Source: a virus
Length of the DNA: 64,000 bases
Virus record (IMG/VR): IMGVR_UViG_3300036826_000588
Location: 25,828-89,827 of that record
Direction: 5' to 3' (one strand)
Below the pieces are notes generated by a model that had not been told where the DNA came from, searched no databases, and was given only the letters and a program-made list of their open reading frames with translations. Position 1 is the first letter of the stretch; each line of letters starts with the position of its first letter. This document shows positions 14,067-48,567 of the stretch, piece by piece. The position numbers and the translations under genes are program-made.

Positions 14067-16052
14067 ATGGACGCCGCCGTCATCAACCCGGCAGCGCGAG
14101 CGATCTGGCGTCGCGAGGACTGGCAGCGCATGGCCGCACTCCACCTTGTGCACCATGGCGGCCACGCAGTACGCGCCGCGGCGCGCATCCTGCGCCTGCC
14201 CAAGAGCACCATCCACGACTGGGTCCGCCAGGGACCGGCCAGCATCCGGGACGAGCGGCTGAGGGCCATCGCCCAGCGGATCATCGATCGCAATCCCCTG
14301 ACCGCCTCCGAGGAGAGCTTCGTCGCCGAGGTGCTCGCACGCGCCGAGCATGGGGAGCAGCAGCCCAACCTCCTCAGCGAGGCCGAGAGCGCCGGCTGCG
14401 GCTGCTGCGACGGCTGCCACGACGCCTGCTCGGGTGAGTGCTGCGACGGCTGCCAGCAGGCGCAACCCACCGGCGTCATGGTGGCGTTCTTCCTGCCGGC
14501 GGATGTCGCCCAGCAACTCGCCATGGACCGCGAGGCCGACCCCACCGCCATGCCGCCGGAGGAGCTGCACGTCACGCTCGCGTTCCTCGGCCAGGCGGCC
14601 GAGCTGGCCGACCCGGGCCGGCTGTGCCGGGTGGTGGCGGGCTTCGCCGCTGTCGCGCCGCCGGTGATGTGCGCGATCTCCGGCGCCGGCCGCTTCGCGG
14701 TGGGGGACCGGGTCGTCTACGCGTCGGTAGACGCGCCCCAGTTGCCGGCGTGGCGCCAGCGCCTGGTCGAGCACCTGGCCCTGGGCGGCTACCCACCATC
14801 GACGCGGCATGGCTTCACGCCGCACGTGACGTTGTGCAATCCGGACGGGCCCGTGACGCTCGACGTCCGGCCGATCGAGTTCGCCGCGACCACACTGACG
14901 GTCGCCATCGCGGGCGCGCGGTACGACTTCCCGCTGGAGGGCGAGAGCGCAACGTTCGCTGAACCGAAGCCTGACACGCCGCCGGCCCGTCCGGATCCGG
15001 ACTCCGCGGCGGCCGGGCAGGATCTCCTCGATGGCCTGGAGCAGGCGCTGAAGGCAGCGAAGCGCGTTGCGCAGAACCACAAGCCGGTGGAGGGGCCAGG
15101 CGAGCCAGGCGACGCCGAGGAGCACACGCGCGCAGAGACCGCAGACGACGAGCTGGACGAGATCCAGGAGCATCCGCCGACGCAGATCATGGACCGCCTC
15201 GCGCTGGAGGCGTGGCACCGCTACATCACCGCGCTGGCGAACGACTCCCCCCACAGCCGTGCCATCTACGTCGCGCGGAAGATCGACCCGGACTTCTTCG
15301 TGACGGACGAGCAGGGCCGGAAGCTCATCCACGCGTTGGGGAAGGGCGACGAACCGGTGATCTTCGGCTGGGCGCCAGGGAACGTGAAGCCGCCGCCGCA
15401 CGTCACTTCGGTCTTCGACCAGTTCGAGGGATCCGCGCAGCAGGAGCGCGAGCTGGCCAGCTACCTCTTCGACCTGGCCAAGGAGTCCTACCTGGAGGGC
15501 GTGAACGCCCAGCTCCTCGTGCTGGGGTTGTCGCTGGAGGCGGCCGTCACGGACCCGACCGTGCTGAGCGAGCTGGGCCAGGCGACGGCCTCGATCGCCC
15601 AGGGGATCATCAACAGCTACAACCGCGCGTTGGCGGCCGAGGTCTACTCCGCCTGGATCGAGCAGCGCAGCACGCTGGGCCGCCAGTCATCGCTCCGAAC
15701 GCTCTGGGAAGACGTCAATCGCTGGGCCGAGGCGCGCGCGCACGAGCGGGCGGGGATGATCTCCGCCACCGAGTACGGCCGCTGGTTCAACCGCGGCGTC
15801 CTCGACTTCCTCTCGCACAACGAGGAGCTGCTGGGCAGCGATGCGACCGTGTACGTCACGCCTGACGAGTGCCTGTGCTCGCTCTGCGCGACCGTCGTCG
15901 CCGGCAGCCCCTACACGCTGGCGGAAGCACAGCAGCTTGGCCTGCCGCTCCATCCGAACTGCGTGCACTTCGCCGAGCTCTCGATGTCACCGGTAGCCGA
16001 CCTCGCGGTGGACGTCCTCTGGACGGCTCAGCTCGCCGACGTCGCAGCGTGA
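14067..16052 (+). CDS. MuF-type head protein fused to a 2H phosphoesterase
   Basis: 661 residues in four parts. Residues 18-60 look like a helix-turn-helix; 108-133 is a Cys-rich cluster (CGCCDGC...CCDGC). Residues about 136-300 carry the paired HxT motifs of the 2H phosphoesterase/LigT superfamily, HVTLAF at 168 and HVTLCN at 253, spaced as in active enzymes. The C-terminal ~280 residues match MuF head morphogenesis proteins: a long helical region, then TPDECLCSLC and LPLHPNCVHF near the end. MuF proteins enter the capsid in some phages. A 2H domain could act on 2'-5' or cyclic nucleotides; T4 Acb1, an anti-CBASS enzyme, belongs to this superfamily. The link to defence is inference. Confidence 0.85.
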   Translation: MDAAVINPAARAIWRREDWQRMAALHLVHHGGHAVRAAARILRLPKSTIHDWVRQGPASIRDERLRAIAQRIIDRNPLTASEESFVAEVLARAEHGEQQPNLLSEAESAGCGCCDGCHDACSGECCDGCQQAQPTGVMVAFFLPADVAQQLAMDREADPTAMPPEELHVTLAFLGQAAELADPGRLCRVVAGFAAVAPPVMCAISGAGRFAVGDRVVYASVDAPQLPAWRQRLVEHLALGGYPPSTRHGFTPHVTLCNPDGPVTLDVRPIEFAATTLTVAIAGARYDFPLEGESATFAEPKPDTPPARPDPDSAAAGQDLLDGLEQALKAAKRVAQNHKPVEGPGEPGDAEEHTRAETADDELDEIQEHPPTQIMDRLALEAWHRYITALANDSPHSRAIYVARKIDPDFFVTDEQGRKLIHALGKGDEPVIFGWAPGNVKPPPHVTSVFDQFEGSAQQERELASYLFDLAKESYLEGVNAQLLVLGLSLEAAVTDPTVLSELGQATASIAQGIINSYNRALAAEVYSAWIEQRSTLGRQSSLRTLWEDVNRWAEARAHERAGMISATEYGRWFNRGVLDFLSHNEELLGSDATVYVTPDECLCSLCATVVAGSPYTLAEAQQLGLPLHPNCVHFAELSMSPVADLAVDVLWTAQLADVAA

Positions 16053-35576: not shown

Positions 35577-35708
35577 GCGAGGTCCCTCCTCGGACGTGGA
35601 TGTGGTGGCTGACGCACGGCCGGGCACGGGCCGGGCCGGACGGTTTTCGGCGCGTATGCTAACTCGGCGCTCGCGTTTTGGTGCCCTGGTGTCGTAATAT
35701 TCCCGCCC

Positions 35709-35873
35709 GGACGGGCCGAACGGGGGGCCGTTAACGCTGATTGGTACAGCACCTCCCTCACAAGGAGTTCCACTCGGTTCGAATCCGGGGAACAGCCCGG
35801 CGCAAGCCGGGAAAACCGGTCGCCCAAAACCGTATGTCCGTCCGCCAACCCTCCGTCGACCAGGGGTTGGCGT
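35709..35873 (+). ncRNA. Y-RNA-like RNA with tRNA-like module
   Basis: Terminal helix GGACGG (35709-35714) with CCGTCC (35838-35843). Inside is a tRNA mimic: D arm GCTG-ATTGGTA-CAGC, a stem-loop CCTCC-CTCACAA-GGAG and a T arm CTCGG-TTCGAAT-CCGGG, but no proper 7-bp acceptor. CCCGGC-GCAA-GCCGGG follows, then CCAACCCT/AGGGGTTGG as a possible terminator. It lies 40 bases upstream of the Ro60 gene. Bacterial Y RNAs of the YrlA type carry tRNA-like modules and sit beside Ro60 (rsr) genes. A degenerate tRNA-Val(CAC) is the alternative. Confidence 0.6.
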
Positions 35874-35912: not shown

Positions 35913-37697
35913 ATGCAGCGGTACACCGGCATGTTGTCGCGCACCCCTCAGCAGGCCCCGATTCCGGGCGTGCCTGGAATGGTGCCGAACCGTGCCGGTG
36001 GCTGGGGCTTCGAGGTCAGCGACCGCGTCCTGGCCGAGCGTTTCATCCTCCTCGGGACGGTCCACGGCTCGTACTACGCAGAGCCCGAGCAGCTCACAGG
36101 CCGGGCAATCGACGCGATCGACCGGCTGCTGGAGAGCGGCGACGGCGAGTGGCTGGTGCAGAAGATCGTCGAGATCAGCACCCTTGGCCGCGCGCCCAAG
36201 CAGGACCCTGGCATCCTCGCCCTCGCCCTGGCGCTGAAGACCGCCCCTGACCGGCGTACGCGCCGCCTGGCGGCCGACGCGGCTCCGCGCGTGTGTCGGA
36301 CCGTCTCCACCGCTTCGGACCTGGCTGACGCTCTCAAGGGCCTCGGGCCGGCGCCGGCGGCCGAAGGCCACAATCGCGAGAAGCCGGCCATCCGGTCGCG
36401 TGCCCAGCGACGCGCCATCGCAGGCTGCTTCGAGGCGTGGGCCCGCGATCCAGCACGGCTGGCCTACCAGCTCATCAAGTACGGGCGGGCCGCCGACAAC
36501 CGGCGCCGGGGGCCGGACGGTTCCCAGGGAGCCATCTGGCGCGCTGTCGACCTGGCGCGGCTGTCGCACTTCCGTGCCTCCAATCCAGAGGTCGACGCGC
36601 TGATGTCGTGGCTGCACGGCCGGAAGGTGGCCAACCTGCCCGCGCAAGTGCGGGCCTACGAAGAGGTGCAGCGCGTGGCGGCCGTGCCGGGGCAGCTCAG
36701 CGAGCACTTTGCTGGCGAGAAGTTCGCCACGGAAGCGCGCGCCAAGGCTACAGAGCGCATCGCCGAGCTCGTGCGCGAGCACCGGCTGCCCTGGGAGTGC
36801 GTCCCAAGCGAGTTCGTGAACCTGCCGAGCGTCCAGCGGGCCCTCTTCGAGGACATGCCCCTGCACACGATGATCCGTCAGCTCGGCCGGCTGACGGCGG
36901 GCGGTCTCTTCGACGCGCCTTCGAGCGTCCAGATGGCCGTCGACCGGCTCCGCGACGTCGAGCGGATCCGGAAGGCGCGCGTGCACCCGATGGCCGCCTA
37001 CCTGGCCGCCATGATCTACGGCAGCGGCCACGGACTGAAGGGCAAGGGCTCATGGCGGCCGGTCCCGGAGATCAAGGACGCCCTCATGGCGGCCTTCCTG
37101 GGTTCCTTCCGCAGTCTGAATGCCAGCGGCAGGCAGATCGTCGTCGGCGTCGACTGCTCCGGCTCGATGGTGCAGCACGACGTGCTCGGCATCCCGGGCT
37201 TCTCGGCACAGGAGGCCGCCTTCATCATGGCGTGGGCCACGGCACGCGTCGAACCGCGGGCCCGCGTGGTGGCCTTCGGCGAGCAGGCCGAGGAGATCGA
37301 GCTGCGCGACGTGCAAACGCTGGACGAGCTGCGGCGCCGGGCGCGCATGGTACGGATACGCCACAACAGGGGTACTGACTGCTCGCTGCCGATCCTCTAC
37401 GCCCTGGAGCGCCCAAACTGGGGCGAAGTGGATGCGTTCGTGATCTACACGGACGAGGAGACCTGGTACAGCCCGACGATCCACCCGATCGAGGCGTTGT
37501 GGCAGTACCGGGCCCGCTGGGAGCGGCGGACGCGGCTCGTCTCCGCCGCGCTCGTGGCCAACCACTACAGCCTCGTGAACACGGCGCCGGACCGCGGCGA
37601 GTCCGTTCAGGACGATGCCGGCGTGCTCGCGGTGACGGGCTTCGACTCGGCCGCGCCAGCGATCATCGCCGACTTCGTGCGCTCAGGGGACGGATAG
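35913..37697 (+). CDS. rsr: Ro60/Rsr RNA-binding protein (TROVE + vWA)
   Basis: 594 residues, ATG with GGAAG upstream. Residues about 15-375 form the HEAT-repeat TROVE ring that binds Y RNAs and misfolded RNA ends; 400-590 is a von Willebrand A domain with MIDAS DCSGS at 414-418 and GTDCSLP near 487. In bacteria Ro60 works with Y RNA and PNPase in RNA decay and rRNA/tRNA handling. Large tRNA-rich actinophages also carry Ro60. A candidate Y RNA lies directly upstream, and 34 tRNAs nearby could be clients. Confidence 0.85.
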   Translation: MQRYTGMLSRTPQQAPIPGVPGMVPNRAGGWGFEVSDRVLAERFILLGTVHGSYYAEPEQLTGRAIDAIDRLLESGDGEWLVQKIVEISTLGRAPKQDPGILALALALKTAPDRRTRRLAADAAPRVCRTVSTASDLADALKGLGPAPAAEGHNREKPAIRSRAQRRAIAGCFEAWARDPARLAYQLIKYGRAADNRRRGPDGSQGAIWRAVDLARLSHFRASNPEVDALMSWLHGRKVANLPAQVRAYEEVQRVAAVPGQLSEHFAGEKFATEARAKATERIAELVREHRLPWECVPSEFVNLPSVQRALFEDMPLHTMIRQLGRLTAGGLFDAPSSVQMAVDRLRDVERIRKARVHPMAAYLAAMIYGSGHGLKGKGSWRPVPEIKDALMAAFLGSFRSLNASGRQIVVGVDCSGSMVQHDVLGIPGFSAQEAAFIMAWATARVEPRARVVAFGEQAEEIELRDVQTLDELRRRARMVRIRHNRGTDCSLPILYALERPNWGEVDAFVIYTDEETWYSPTIHPIEALWQYRARWERRTRLVSAALVANHYSLVNTAPDRGESVQDDAGVLAVTGFDSAAPAIIADFVRSGDG

Positions 37698-43555: not shown

Positions 43556-43686
43556 GCCAGCTATTGTAACACTACCGCCGTTGCTGTGCAGGGGTGCGCG
43601 CGGCTCGATGCGTTTCCCCCGCTTGGCTGAGATTCACCAGCCGCGAGCCGCACGCCAGGCTATTATACCGAACAACAGTTCGGGGG

Positions 43687-43714
43687 TTGCGTTCCGCGGC
43701 GGTATCGTTATAAT
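43687..43714 (+). promoter_or_regulatory. Consensus-like promoter of the structured RNA region
   Basis: TTGCGT (43687-43692), 16 bases, TATAAT (43709-43714). The best -10 match in the window and not followed by a gene. Confidence 0.65.
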
Positions 43715-44418
43715 TGGAGGCGTCGGGCGGGGCGCGGCTCCGATCGAAGGAACCTCCGCCCCGACAAGAACCTTCCAAAGTGAAGACCGACTCCCCCGGG
43801 AAGGGGAGGTGCACCGCATGGCCCTGGCGCCAACGGCAGGGTGTGAGGTAGCTGAACTGGCTATCCTTGCACCTGACAGGGGGCGGCCGTGGATAGTCGG
43901 CAAGGGACAAGCACCCCACCCCTTCCCGGGGGACCAACTTTGACTTCACCCCCGCAGCCATGCTCGGTGGAGGCGCGAGGAGGGCTTGCCCTCCTCGCCC
44001 GCCCCGAGCGGCGCGGGTGTTATATGAGGGACTGGGAGCGCCCGCAAGCCCCGTTGCGGGAGTAGAGCTGAAAGGGCAGGCCCGCTCGCGGCGCCGGTCG
44101 GTTCTCCCAGGTACAGCCTGGGCGCCTCCCGGCACTCCCTCATCGACCTCCCAGGGGAGGGGAGCCACTCGACGTGACCGACGGAAATGCGAGCGCTGCC
44201 GCAGTGCTGTGCGGCCAACAGCGAAGTGCACGCGCCGAGGTCATAGGACTGGAACGGGGGATGCACGTACTCCCTGAAGGCCAGTTCAGATCGCGGGGTG
44301 GAAGGGTCATGGGTTACGGCCGACCCTCCGCCCCCGGTCACGTCGGGGATGGCCTCCCGAGGAACCGGGGATTGGCCGCGTGGAACCCGTCCGCCACAGG
44401 GATCGGGGTAACGCGGTA

Positions 44419-44508
44419 GCGGTGGATGCAGGTGGTCGCAAGGGGAGCACGCCCCTCGCAAGGGGGAAGTGACCCGTTCGAATCGGGTCTCTGTATCCGT
44501 CCAACCGC
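44419..44508 (+). ncRNA. tRNA-like element on an extended helix
   Basis: T arm ACCCG-TTCGAAT-CGGGT, a GC-rich stem-loop CCCCT-CGCA-AGGGG in the anticodon position, and a closing helix GCGGT-GGATGCAG / CTGTATCC-GTCCA-ACCGC that is far longer than an acceptor stem. Not a normal tRNA; similar in plan to the Y-RNA-like element at 35709. Confidence 0.5.
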
Positions 44509-44509
44509 T

Positions 44510-44589
44510 GGGGCACAGAAGGGTTCGACGGGGCTGAACGCCGAAGTGCACGGCTCCGGAGGTCGGTTCGACACCGACGTGCTCCACCA
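44510..44589 (+). ncRNA. Short tmRNA-like RNA
   Basis: 80 nt. Acceptor GGGGCAC/GTGCTCC, discriminator A and CCA; after the 5' strand comes GAAGGGTTCGACGGGG, the stemless D-loop signature of tmRNA; T arm GTCGG-TTCGACA-CCGAC. In place of the mRNA domain and pseudoknots there is one hairpin GCCG-AAGTGCA-CGGC. If read as a tRNA the anticodon would be GTG (His), but no D stem can form. Confidence 0.55.
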
Positions 44590-44956
44590 ACGTGATCTCG
44601 GATCAGAGGCCGGGAAGCTGCGAAAGCCCGTGGGCGTGCTGGGCACTGGCCTGGTGAGCGGCGCCGGCCTCCGATCCGGGGGCACCCGGAACGAGAGGCG
44701 CTGGTTCCCGTAACGGCAAGAGGGCAGAGCCCGGTCAGACGTCACCGGTGACGCGCCCCACCAGCTTCGACGGCAGTCGGGAAAGAGCGTGGAGCGGCTC
44801 GGCCGGCGCCTCTCACTCAACCTTCGTACGCAAAGGGCGGGACAGCCCAAAGCGGATGGGGCCCCGGGGCCGGCAAAGTCCGGCCCCGCCTCCCGCTGGG
44901 AGCTGGTGAGTTCTGTGGCGGGCCTCGCCGGTTCCCAACGGGTGGAGAGAAAGGGC

Positions 44957-44991
44957 AGAGCCCGGGTGCACATCGGATGCGCCCGGGCTCT
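44957..44991 (+). terminator. Terminator at the end of the structured RNA region
   Basis: AGAGCCCGGG and CCCGGGCTCT form a 10-bp stem followed by CTGCGTTTC; lies immediately before the end of the convergent gene at 44999. Confidence 0.65.
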
Positions 44992-44998
44992 CTGCGTT

Positions 44999-45489: not shown

Positions 45490-46452
45490 TCAGATCGAAA
45501 CCTTGCTCGCGGCGTTGTTGTCGAACAGCCCACGGCGGATGTAGCCGCCCGCGACACGGGAGGACTTCCAGCGTCCCTGGGCCATGATCGCCGCCAGGCT
45601 GGCACCTCCAGCGTCTGCGCTGGTCGCCATGCCGGCCCGCAGGCTGTGGCCGGCGTAGTCGGCCGGATCCAGGCCGATGCGCCGGCAGCCACGCTTCACG
45701 ATGAGCGCAACCGCTTCTGGGGTCATTCGGTCTTCGCCGACGTGGTCCCACCTGCTGACCGGGTGCCAGATGGCACCTGAGTTGATGCCGGCGCCGTCGA
45801 GCCAGGCGCGCAGGGCTCGCACCGGGCACGTGGCCGCGTCCGAGCGCCGTGGTACCGCCACACGCTGGCCCAGGGCCTCCTGGTCGGTCTTGCTCCGCCC
45901 CAGGAGGATCACCAGGCCGTCCTCCAGCCACTCAACGTCCTCGACGTCCTGGCCGGCCAGCTCCGAGCGCCGGAAGCCGCCGAGCAGGCCGACGAGCAGC
46001 AGCGCTCGATCGCGGCGGCCGGCGTGCGTGTCGGTGGGGACCTCTTCCAGCAGCAGGCGGAGCTGCTTGCCGGTCAACGCCTTCTTCGGCTTGGGCGCGC
46101 CGCCCTTCTGGCGCCGGATGCCGGCCATCACCTCCTGGACCCGCCGGTCACGGGTGGGGGAGTTGTGGCCGGCCGTCTCGTGCGCCTTCGCCAGCGCCGC
46201 GAGCCGGCGGCTGATGGTCGCCGTGCTTCGTCCGAGCTGGGCCAGGTGGGTGATGTAGCCCGCCACCGTCGCCGGGGCGGCCGGAAGTGGATTGCGGCGC
46301 CGCTCGGCGCACCAGGCGATGAAGCTCTCCCAGTCGCTGGTGTATGCGCGCCGGGTGTTCCCGGCCACAGCGGCGGCCGCGTACTCGGCCATCTGGTGCG
46401 CGAGCGCGGCCGACATGGGGTGCTCGGCGCGTTGCGCCAGCTCCTCGGTCAT
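45490..46452 (-). CDS. Tyrosine recombinase (integrase)
   Basis: 320 residues. N-terminal SAM-like core-binding domain (about 20-100), then a catalytic domain with Arg in GGFRRSEL (about 190), Lys region, HSLRAG (His and second Arg), GRWKS and the nucleophile Tyr in GGYIRRG near 305. All catalytic residues are present. XerD-like enzymes integrate phage genomes; no att site could be located by eye. Confidence 0.85.
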   Translation of the reverse strand: MTEELAQRAEHPMSAALAHQMAEYAAAAVAGNTRRAYTSDWESFIAWCAERRRNPLPAAPATVAGYITHLAQLGRSTATISRRLAALAKAHETAGHNSPTRDRRVQEVMAGIRRQKGGAPKPKKALTGKQLRLLLEEVPTDTHAGRRDRALLLVGLLGGFRRSELAGQDVEDVEWLEDGLVILLGRSKTDQEALGQRVAVPRRSDAATCPVRALRAWLDGAGINSGAIWHPVSRWDHVGEDRMTPEAVALIVKRGCRRIGLDPADYAGHSLRAGMATSADAGGASLAAIMAQGRWKSSRVAGGYIRRGLFDNNAASKVSI

Positions 46453-46670
46453 CGCCAGTCGACCTCCACCTCGTTGCCCCCGAGACGCTCGTAGATGTCC
46501 CGAGCCCAGCCGCGGCGGTCGGAGCTGACGGCCTCGACCCACGCGATGCGGAGTTCGTCCTCGCTGAACGCTCCCCTCTCCTCCTCGCAGGCGACCATGA
46601 AGCGCGCCAGCGTCGGGATCGGGGACGGCCCGGAGCGTCCCGGTCGGCTGGACTTGGTGGCATCGCCCAT
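46449..46670 (-). CDS. Small hypothetical protein
   Basis: 73 residues; ATG 46670 follows TACAAT by six bases (leaderless). Helical (LARFMVACEEER, ELRIAWVEAV). Overlaps the integrase start by four bases and may control it. Confidence 0.6.
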   Translation of the reverse strand: MGDATKSSRPGRSGPSPIPTLARFMVACEEERGAFSEDELRIAWVEAVSSDRRGWARDIYERLGGNEVEVDWR

Positions 46671-48561: not shown

Positions 48562-48567
48562 ATTATA
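48562..48567 (-). promoter_or_regulatory. -10 box TATAAT
   Basis: Perfect -10 hexamer six bases before ATG 48555 and touching the palindrome 48568-48595. Confidence 0.7.

Follow-up and report, generated by a model that had tools for sequence, protein, structure and literature searches.

A tag-less tmRNA within a structured noncoding locus of a tRNA-rich actinophage

Genomic setting

The stretch of DNA that was analyzed (the window, 64 kb) is part of an 89,827-bp virus record of IMG/VR. Phage genes found in it include a Mu-like portal, a terminase, a sigma factor, a tyrosine integrase, and a Ro60/TROVE protein. Aragorn called 34 tRNAs in the window, 33 of them within an island at 21.6-33.3 kb, and the relatives of the Ro60 protein were mostly actinophage proteins. 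The source virus is a tRNA-rich actinophage. No SmpB gene (PF01668) was detected in the record by profile search. In the head-gene region, a 661-aa protein (window 14067-16052) carries a LigT/2'-5' RNA ligase domain, and its C-terminal part matches a portal PHROG. The features of the locus and of the related sequences are listed in Table 1.

Table 1. Position of the features in the window and in the compared phage sequences
Feature	Sequence	Position	Strand	Remarks
Ro60/TROVE RNA-binding protein (phage RNA-management gene)	window	35913-37697	+	PF25045 1e-34, PF05731 2e-14; phrog_850
Perfect palindrome CCGAAC-AACA-GTTCGG, candidate operator	window	43668-43683		between two divergent TATAAT boxes; putative role
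Candidate promoter TTGCGT-16-TATAAT	window	43687-43714	+	-35 at 43687-43692, TATAAT at 43709-43714; start near 43721
5' structured domain	window	43721-44416	+	z -6.5 to -6.8 vs dinucleotide shuffles
Predicted long-range closing helix, 5' strand	window	43938-43950	+	partner 44941-44953; spans 1016 nt
tRNA-like three-way junction	window	44418-44509	+	z -3.06; 0/200 shuffles equally stable
Tag-less tmRNA (tRNA-like domain only), by sequence	window	44510-44589	+	held-out covariance model 74.5 bits, E 3.5e-15
3' structured domain	window	44590-44956	+	z -3.7 to -4.2
Terminal GC hairpin	window	44957-44997	+	14-nt arms, 93% complementary; z -3.9
Tyrosine integrase	window	45490-46542	-	PF00589 6e-10, PF02899 5.3e-6
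GOLLD-like RNAs	L094; L095	8961-9417; 13351-13807		67-70 bits vs Rfam cut-off 150
ROOL RNAs in phages with tag-less tmRNA	L096; L097	8990-9609; 8571-9178
Tag-less tmRNAs of BoomerJR, Warpy, MulchMansion	L135; L136; L137	3646-3726; 2872-2951; 3313-3392

Gene-free region and its limits

The first-pass annotation had described positions 43560-44998 as a gene-free, highly structured region between a promoter and a terminator. The absence of genes was borne out. The region has no codon-phase GC signal, unlike its neighbors, i.e., the spread was 0.03-0.20 across the region and 0.3-0.5 in the adjoining genes, and the ORFs of up to 219 aa in the region are a chance product of GC-rich DNA.

The two limits stood in part. 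The promoter sequence is present, but its -35 box is weak (3/6) and the consensus scanner did not list it. At the other limit, a strong GC hairpin was found (44957-44991), but it has no T-run and the terminator scan did not list it; the hairpin is probably an intrinsic terminator without a U-tract. Between these limits, 43721-44997 is a structured noncoding locus.

The TATAAT box has three copies in the 64 kb, both strands counted. Two of them are divergent, lie within 43662-43714 and flank the perfect palindrome, and the third is placed at 48562. The boxes at 43709 and 48562 are followed directly by the same TGG. The palindrome occurs once in the window when up to one mismatch is allowed, with a chance mean of 0.31.

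Tag-less tmRNA

The tmRNA is the ribosome-rescue RNA of bacteria. The tmRNA-like element that had been noticed in the region proved real, and its limits are exact, i.e., it consists of the tRNA-like domain (TLD) alone. The score in Table 1 comes from a covariance model (R1) trained on 13 further TLD-only RNAs of phages and not on the present element, and the best-scoring tRNA of the window reached 30.4 bits under the same model. The acceptor stem GGGGCAC/GTGCTCC-ACCA has 7/7 pairs, the alanine identity pair G3:U70, discriminator A, and an encoded CCA. A D-loop-like TTCGAC is followed by a P2 stub of 7/7 bp, and the T-stem has 5/5 pairs. Only 16 nt lie between the P2 strands. On these sequence features, the element is a tag-less tmRNA.

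Other forms of tmRNA were searched. The standard tmRNA model (RF00023) gave nothing above the gathering score, and the element was absent among its matches in the sequence holding the region even at E<=10. A tag frame outside the element was ruled out, since no tag end of the form Ala/Val-Ala/Val-stop was found in any frame of the whole RNA. A permuted two-piece tmRNA was rejected as well, the element being in standard order from the 5' strand of the acceptor to the CCA. RF04321 showed a weak match of 15 bits, which covers only the T-arm half of the element.

Distribution of tag-less tmRNAs in phages

Relatives were collected from viral contigs by sequence patterns. The first pattern required only TTCGACNGG, the T-loop, and CCACCA, and demanded neither acceptor pairing nor G3:U70. 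It gave 76 viral loci. Once chance matches had been discarded, 37 unique sequences were left, including the present one, and all of them had 7/7 acceptor pairs and G3:U70. A second pattern, in which CCA was not required, added 21 loci, 18 of which were genuine by helix or model score; nearly all of these 18 are without an encoded CCA. The unique relatives in viral contigs number about 54 in total. One match to the TLD pattern, in a Frankiaceae MAG (L085), was set aside with 28.5 bits under R1, which is the level of a tRNA. The Rfam tmRNA model reads most of the relatives of about 80 nt as tmRNA with the entire middle deleted.

Covariation was strong in all three helices of the 13-sequence alignment, from which the present element was held out. 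The covariation score of the family was 0.711 vs 0.172 when shuffled, and 10 of the 19 pairs were changed on both sides. The paired cells in the family alignment amounted to 98.8%, compared with 42-57% when slid.

Divergent, unannotated tag-less tmRNAs were also found in three cultured phages of Streptomyces, namely BoomerJR (MK359351, positions 86245-86325), Warpy, and MulchMansion. These have tRNA-Val/tRNA-Leu on either side and all carry G3:U70. In the other phages, the TLD mostly stands alone in or near the tRNA array, outside any large structured region.

Several observations were made beside the family. A smaller type of tag-less tmRNA, of 65-66 nt with an almost loopless P2 and G3:U70, occurs in more than 20 contigs (L006, L011, L012, L014, L029, L081, and relatives). 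In L062, Aragorn calls a tmRNA about 400 nt upstream of the tag-less one. Pistol ribozymes lie within 2-3 kb of tag-less tmRNAs in L035 (13302-13377), L042 (1621-1716), and L049 (5916-6012). In L118, an unrelated GC-rich phage contig, a tag-less tmRNA (2315-2395) is placed directly before a probable terminase gene, as judged by reading. The stretch upstream of that TLD (890-2312) is noncoding and structured on both strands, and has no sequence similarity to the present region.

Mycobacteriophage DS6A has been reported to carry a TLD-only tmRNA (PMC4131195), and a tmRNA database of 2025 holds nine unique genes of the kind 'standard, no CDS' (PMC11915505). Compared by description, the DS6A tmRNA and the present one are both from actinophages, and both are a complete TLD without the message part and with little beyond it. 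Unlike in DS6A, the present TLD is central in a structured noncoding region of 1.28 kb and adjoins another tRNA-like element. The element thus belongs to a known, rarely recorded kind, whose breadth in phages exceeds the published record; the family is widespread and for the most part unannotated.

The conservation of the family also bears on the integrase, which is encoded 0.9 kb from the TLD. tRNA and tmRNA genes are common targets of actinophage integrases; one of them is ssrA, which is attB-9 of M. smegmatis, and the 30-45-bp att cores contain the gene's 3' half (PMC10865867). In this way, the integrase could use the 3' half of the TLD as its attP core to integrate into ssrA of the host, and the rest of the region would be regulatory or intergenic. 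We consider this improbable, because the 5' half is dispensable for an attP core, yet on that side the acceptor strand, the D-loop-like region, and P2 have all been kept and show covariation in the family. Moreover, DS6A, which is TLD-only, integrates at tRNA-Lys and not at tmRNA (PMC10865867).

tRNA-like element

The embedded tRNA-like element, next to the TLD on its 5' side, was upheld as a structure, i.e., a stable junction with a T-arm, but it obtained no tRNA score from Aragorn or Rfam RF00005. It has a basal stem AGCGGT/ACCGCT, an acceptor-like stem of 8 bp (GGATGCAG/CTGTATCC), and a canonical T-arm, ACCCG-TTCGAAT-CGGGT, at 44472-44488. It may be a degenerate tRNA or a YrlA-like mimic of tRNA. 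In YrlA, a bacterial Y RNA, a basal stem is likewise combined with a tRNA-like module, and the phage encodes Ro60; unlike YrlA, the element is not beside the Ro gene. A better YrlA candidate is found at about 35700-35850, directly upstream of that gene. At this place Aragorn calls a second tRNA-Val(cac) (35727-35798), with the D-arm GCTGATTGGTACAGC and the T-arm CTCGGTTCGAATCCGGG. Positions 35680-35870 of the window thus hold a likely YrlA-type Y RNA, although its folding energy is not unusual.

Folding of the region

The claim of a highly structured region was supported by folding of the predicted RNA (43721-44996). The full-length MFE was -703 kcal/mol, with z of about -8.1 against dinucleotide shuffles. 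This z was the most extreme among the 50 windows of equal length tested, the runners-up being -7.05 and -6.84, and the + strand folds more stably than its complement (-703 vs -655). Caution is needed with these energies, because z of -4 to -7 was also reached elsewhere in the same folding test, in some cases by largely coding windows, and a GOLLD-like region matched by its model (L094) gave only -1.1. Folding energy is therefore suggestive of a structured RNA and no proof of it.

In the 5' domain, a stem (43792-43812/43911-43933) and a hairpin (43952-43984/43989-44016) were predicted with probability of about 0.99. The predicted features of the 3' domain are hairpins at 44866-44887 and 44597-44680 and an inverted repeat at 44654-44669/44801-44816. 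Several stems of both domains had a predicted probability near 1. The long-range helix, whose strands lie in the two flanks, showed a mean pair probability of 0.94 as a prediction from a single sequence. A second copy of the TLD at 44217, suggested by the repeat CGAAGTGCACG, was dismissed as chance; exact direct repeats of at least 11 nt occurred in 89 of 200 shuffles.

Homologs of the region were searched at several levels. BLASTn of the region against phages at E 1e-5 and E 10 gave short unrelated matches only. No homolog of the region was detected when 24 kb of context was included in a megablast against phages and plasmids, or when 395 Actinomycetes genomes were searched at the DNA level. 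In IMG/VR, searches anchored on proteins (Ro60, the 448-aa neighbor, TerL, integrase, and portal) gave no relative carrying the RNA. A single 4-kb IMG/VR contig from these searches was 91-96% identical at the portal and TerL, and the RNA is absent from it. Since no flank homolog was found, the predicted structure of the flanks is based on folding energy from a single sequence.

The region could be read as a decayed remnant of the tRNA island, i.e., an array spacer with a degenerated tRNA and tmRNA and incidental structure. The tRNA-like element is not recognized as a tRNA, and other spacers of the tRNA region of this phage are long, noncoding, and moderately structured. However, every helix and invariant position of the TLD is preserved. 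The region also lies 10 kb away from the tRNA array, with a promoter-like site and an end hairpin of its own, and its structure signal is stronger than that of any array window. Decay is thus a very improbable explanation.

Comparison with giant phage RNAs

None of the Rfam models for GOLLD, ROOL, OLE, and tmRNA matched the region at any useful score; the first-pass annotation had named these RNAs and allowed for a new class. GOLLD (RF02032) had no match at E<=10 in the sequence holding the region and none at E<=5 in the region, and ROOL (RF03087) had no match at E<=10. For OLE, raiA, and all other families of Rfam 15, a whole-library scan at gathering score and at E<=5 gave only weak, chance-level matches.

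The same models worked on positive controls. The GOLLD model finds GOLLD-like RNA in the TLD-only contigs G001 and G005, and the ROOL model finds ROOL in the TLD-only contigs G018 and G021. Both GOLLD-like RNAs (L094 and L095) share a tRNA array with the TLD, and that of G001 (L094) has an internal tRNA-Ser. In L096, the TLD is 1.5 kb from ROOL. A giant RNA and a TLD-only tmRNA were found together in four contigs among the 26-29 searched, although G001 and G005 are near relatives and the independent cases are fewer than four. This co-occurrence in tRNA-rich phages is a real, small pattern.

GOLLD is a large structured noncoding RNA of tRNA-rich phages and is built of a 5' domain, a linker able to hold tRNAs, and a 3' domain, as is the layout here. 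The present region differs in being longer (1.28 kb), in having a tRNA-like element and a tag-less tmRNA as its insert, and in matching no model. ROOL is similar as a large structured phage RNA near tRNA islands and accompanies a TLD-only tmRNA in two other phages, whereas the present region is twice as long, has embedded tRNA-type modules, and does not match its model.

From these likenesses, the whole 1.28 kb may be a single giant ornate RNA that represents a new class. The tRNA-like and TLD modules would sit in a linker in a GOLLD-like layout, the RNA would probably be oligomeric, and the TLD would stay covalently attached, e.g., as an alanyl or ribosome-binding handle. The region being the most structured of the 50 windows, the predicted helix across 1016 nt, and the promoter at one limit with the hairpin at the other agree with a single RNA. 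Its order of 5' domain, tRNA-type insert, and 3' domain matches that of the GOLLD-like RNA with the internal tRNA-Ser, and GOLLD linkers sometimes contain tRNAs (PMC12286853). Against this, no flank homolog was found in phages, IMG/VR, plasmids, or the 395 Actinomycetes genomes, no Rfam match exceeded chance at E<=5, and single-sequence folds of GC-rich RNA are unreliable. Because z was -1.1 for the GOLLD-like L094 and -6.0 for ROOL, folding energy neither proves nor excludes membership among the giant RNAs. We regard a single giant RNA as possible, though unlikely. A more specific form of it is doubtful, i.e., a new class of giant phage RNA of about 1.28 kb with two built-in modules between its two structured domains. 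These modules, a tag-less tmRNA able to accept alanine and bind SmpB and a further tRNA mimic, would dock on or sequester the ribosome-rescue components of the host.

Possible function of the locus

The best explanation, to which we give about an even chance, is a noncoding RNA locus carrying an alanine-chargeable decoy for SmpB and EF-Tu, directed against the trans-translation of the host. A molecule like that of DS6A, whether chargeable or not, strongly inhibits E. coli tmRNA, perhaps by titration of SmpB (PMC4131195). Because this similar message-less form blocks tmRNA rescue elsewhere, the present tag-less tmRNA is, by analogy, probably a decoy as well.

The decoy could act as follows. One transcript would start near 43721, run rightward, and end with the hairpin (44997). 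RNase P of the host would free the 5' end of the TLD, and the alanyl-tRNA synthetase (AlaRS) of the host would charge the encoded CCA end with alanine through G3:U70. The TLD would then bind SmpB and EF-Tu of the host. Because it lacks a resume codon, a tag, and a stop codon, trans-translation could not be completed, and the TLD would therefore compete with the host tmRNA for SmpB and stalled ribosomes, damping host ribosome rescue during infection. The flanks may be a carrier, stabilizer, or scaffold of the TLD payload, as GOLLD may be for its linker tRNAs. The predicted long-range helix could keep the two flanks together after excision of the TLD.

Several points speak against this explanation. 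Release by RNase P would split a single RNA of 1.28 kb in two. The G3:U70 pair would also fit a role other than a decoy, and the similar molecule inhibits in either state of chargeability. In addition, the embedded placement is atypical of the family.

The literature consulted records the tag-less phage tmRNA for essentially one phage, DS6A, whereas the family reported here covaries and comprises about 54 unique sequences from viral contigs, in addition to the copies in cultured Streptomyces phages. The breadth of the family suggests that blocking or remodeling of trans-translation is a common strategy of phages. A TLD in a GOLLD-like layout, together with the ROOL and GOLLD-like RNAs in four other TLD-only contigs, is a lead on the function of giant phage RNAs, which may be tied to the biology of tRNAs and ribosomes.
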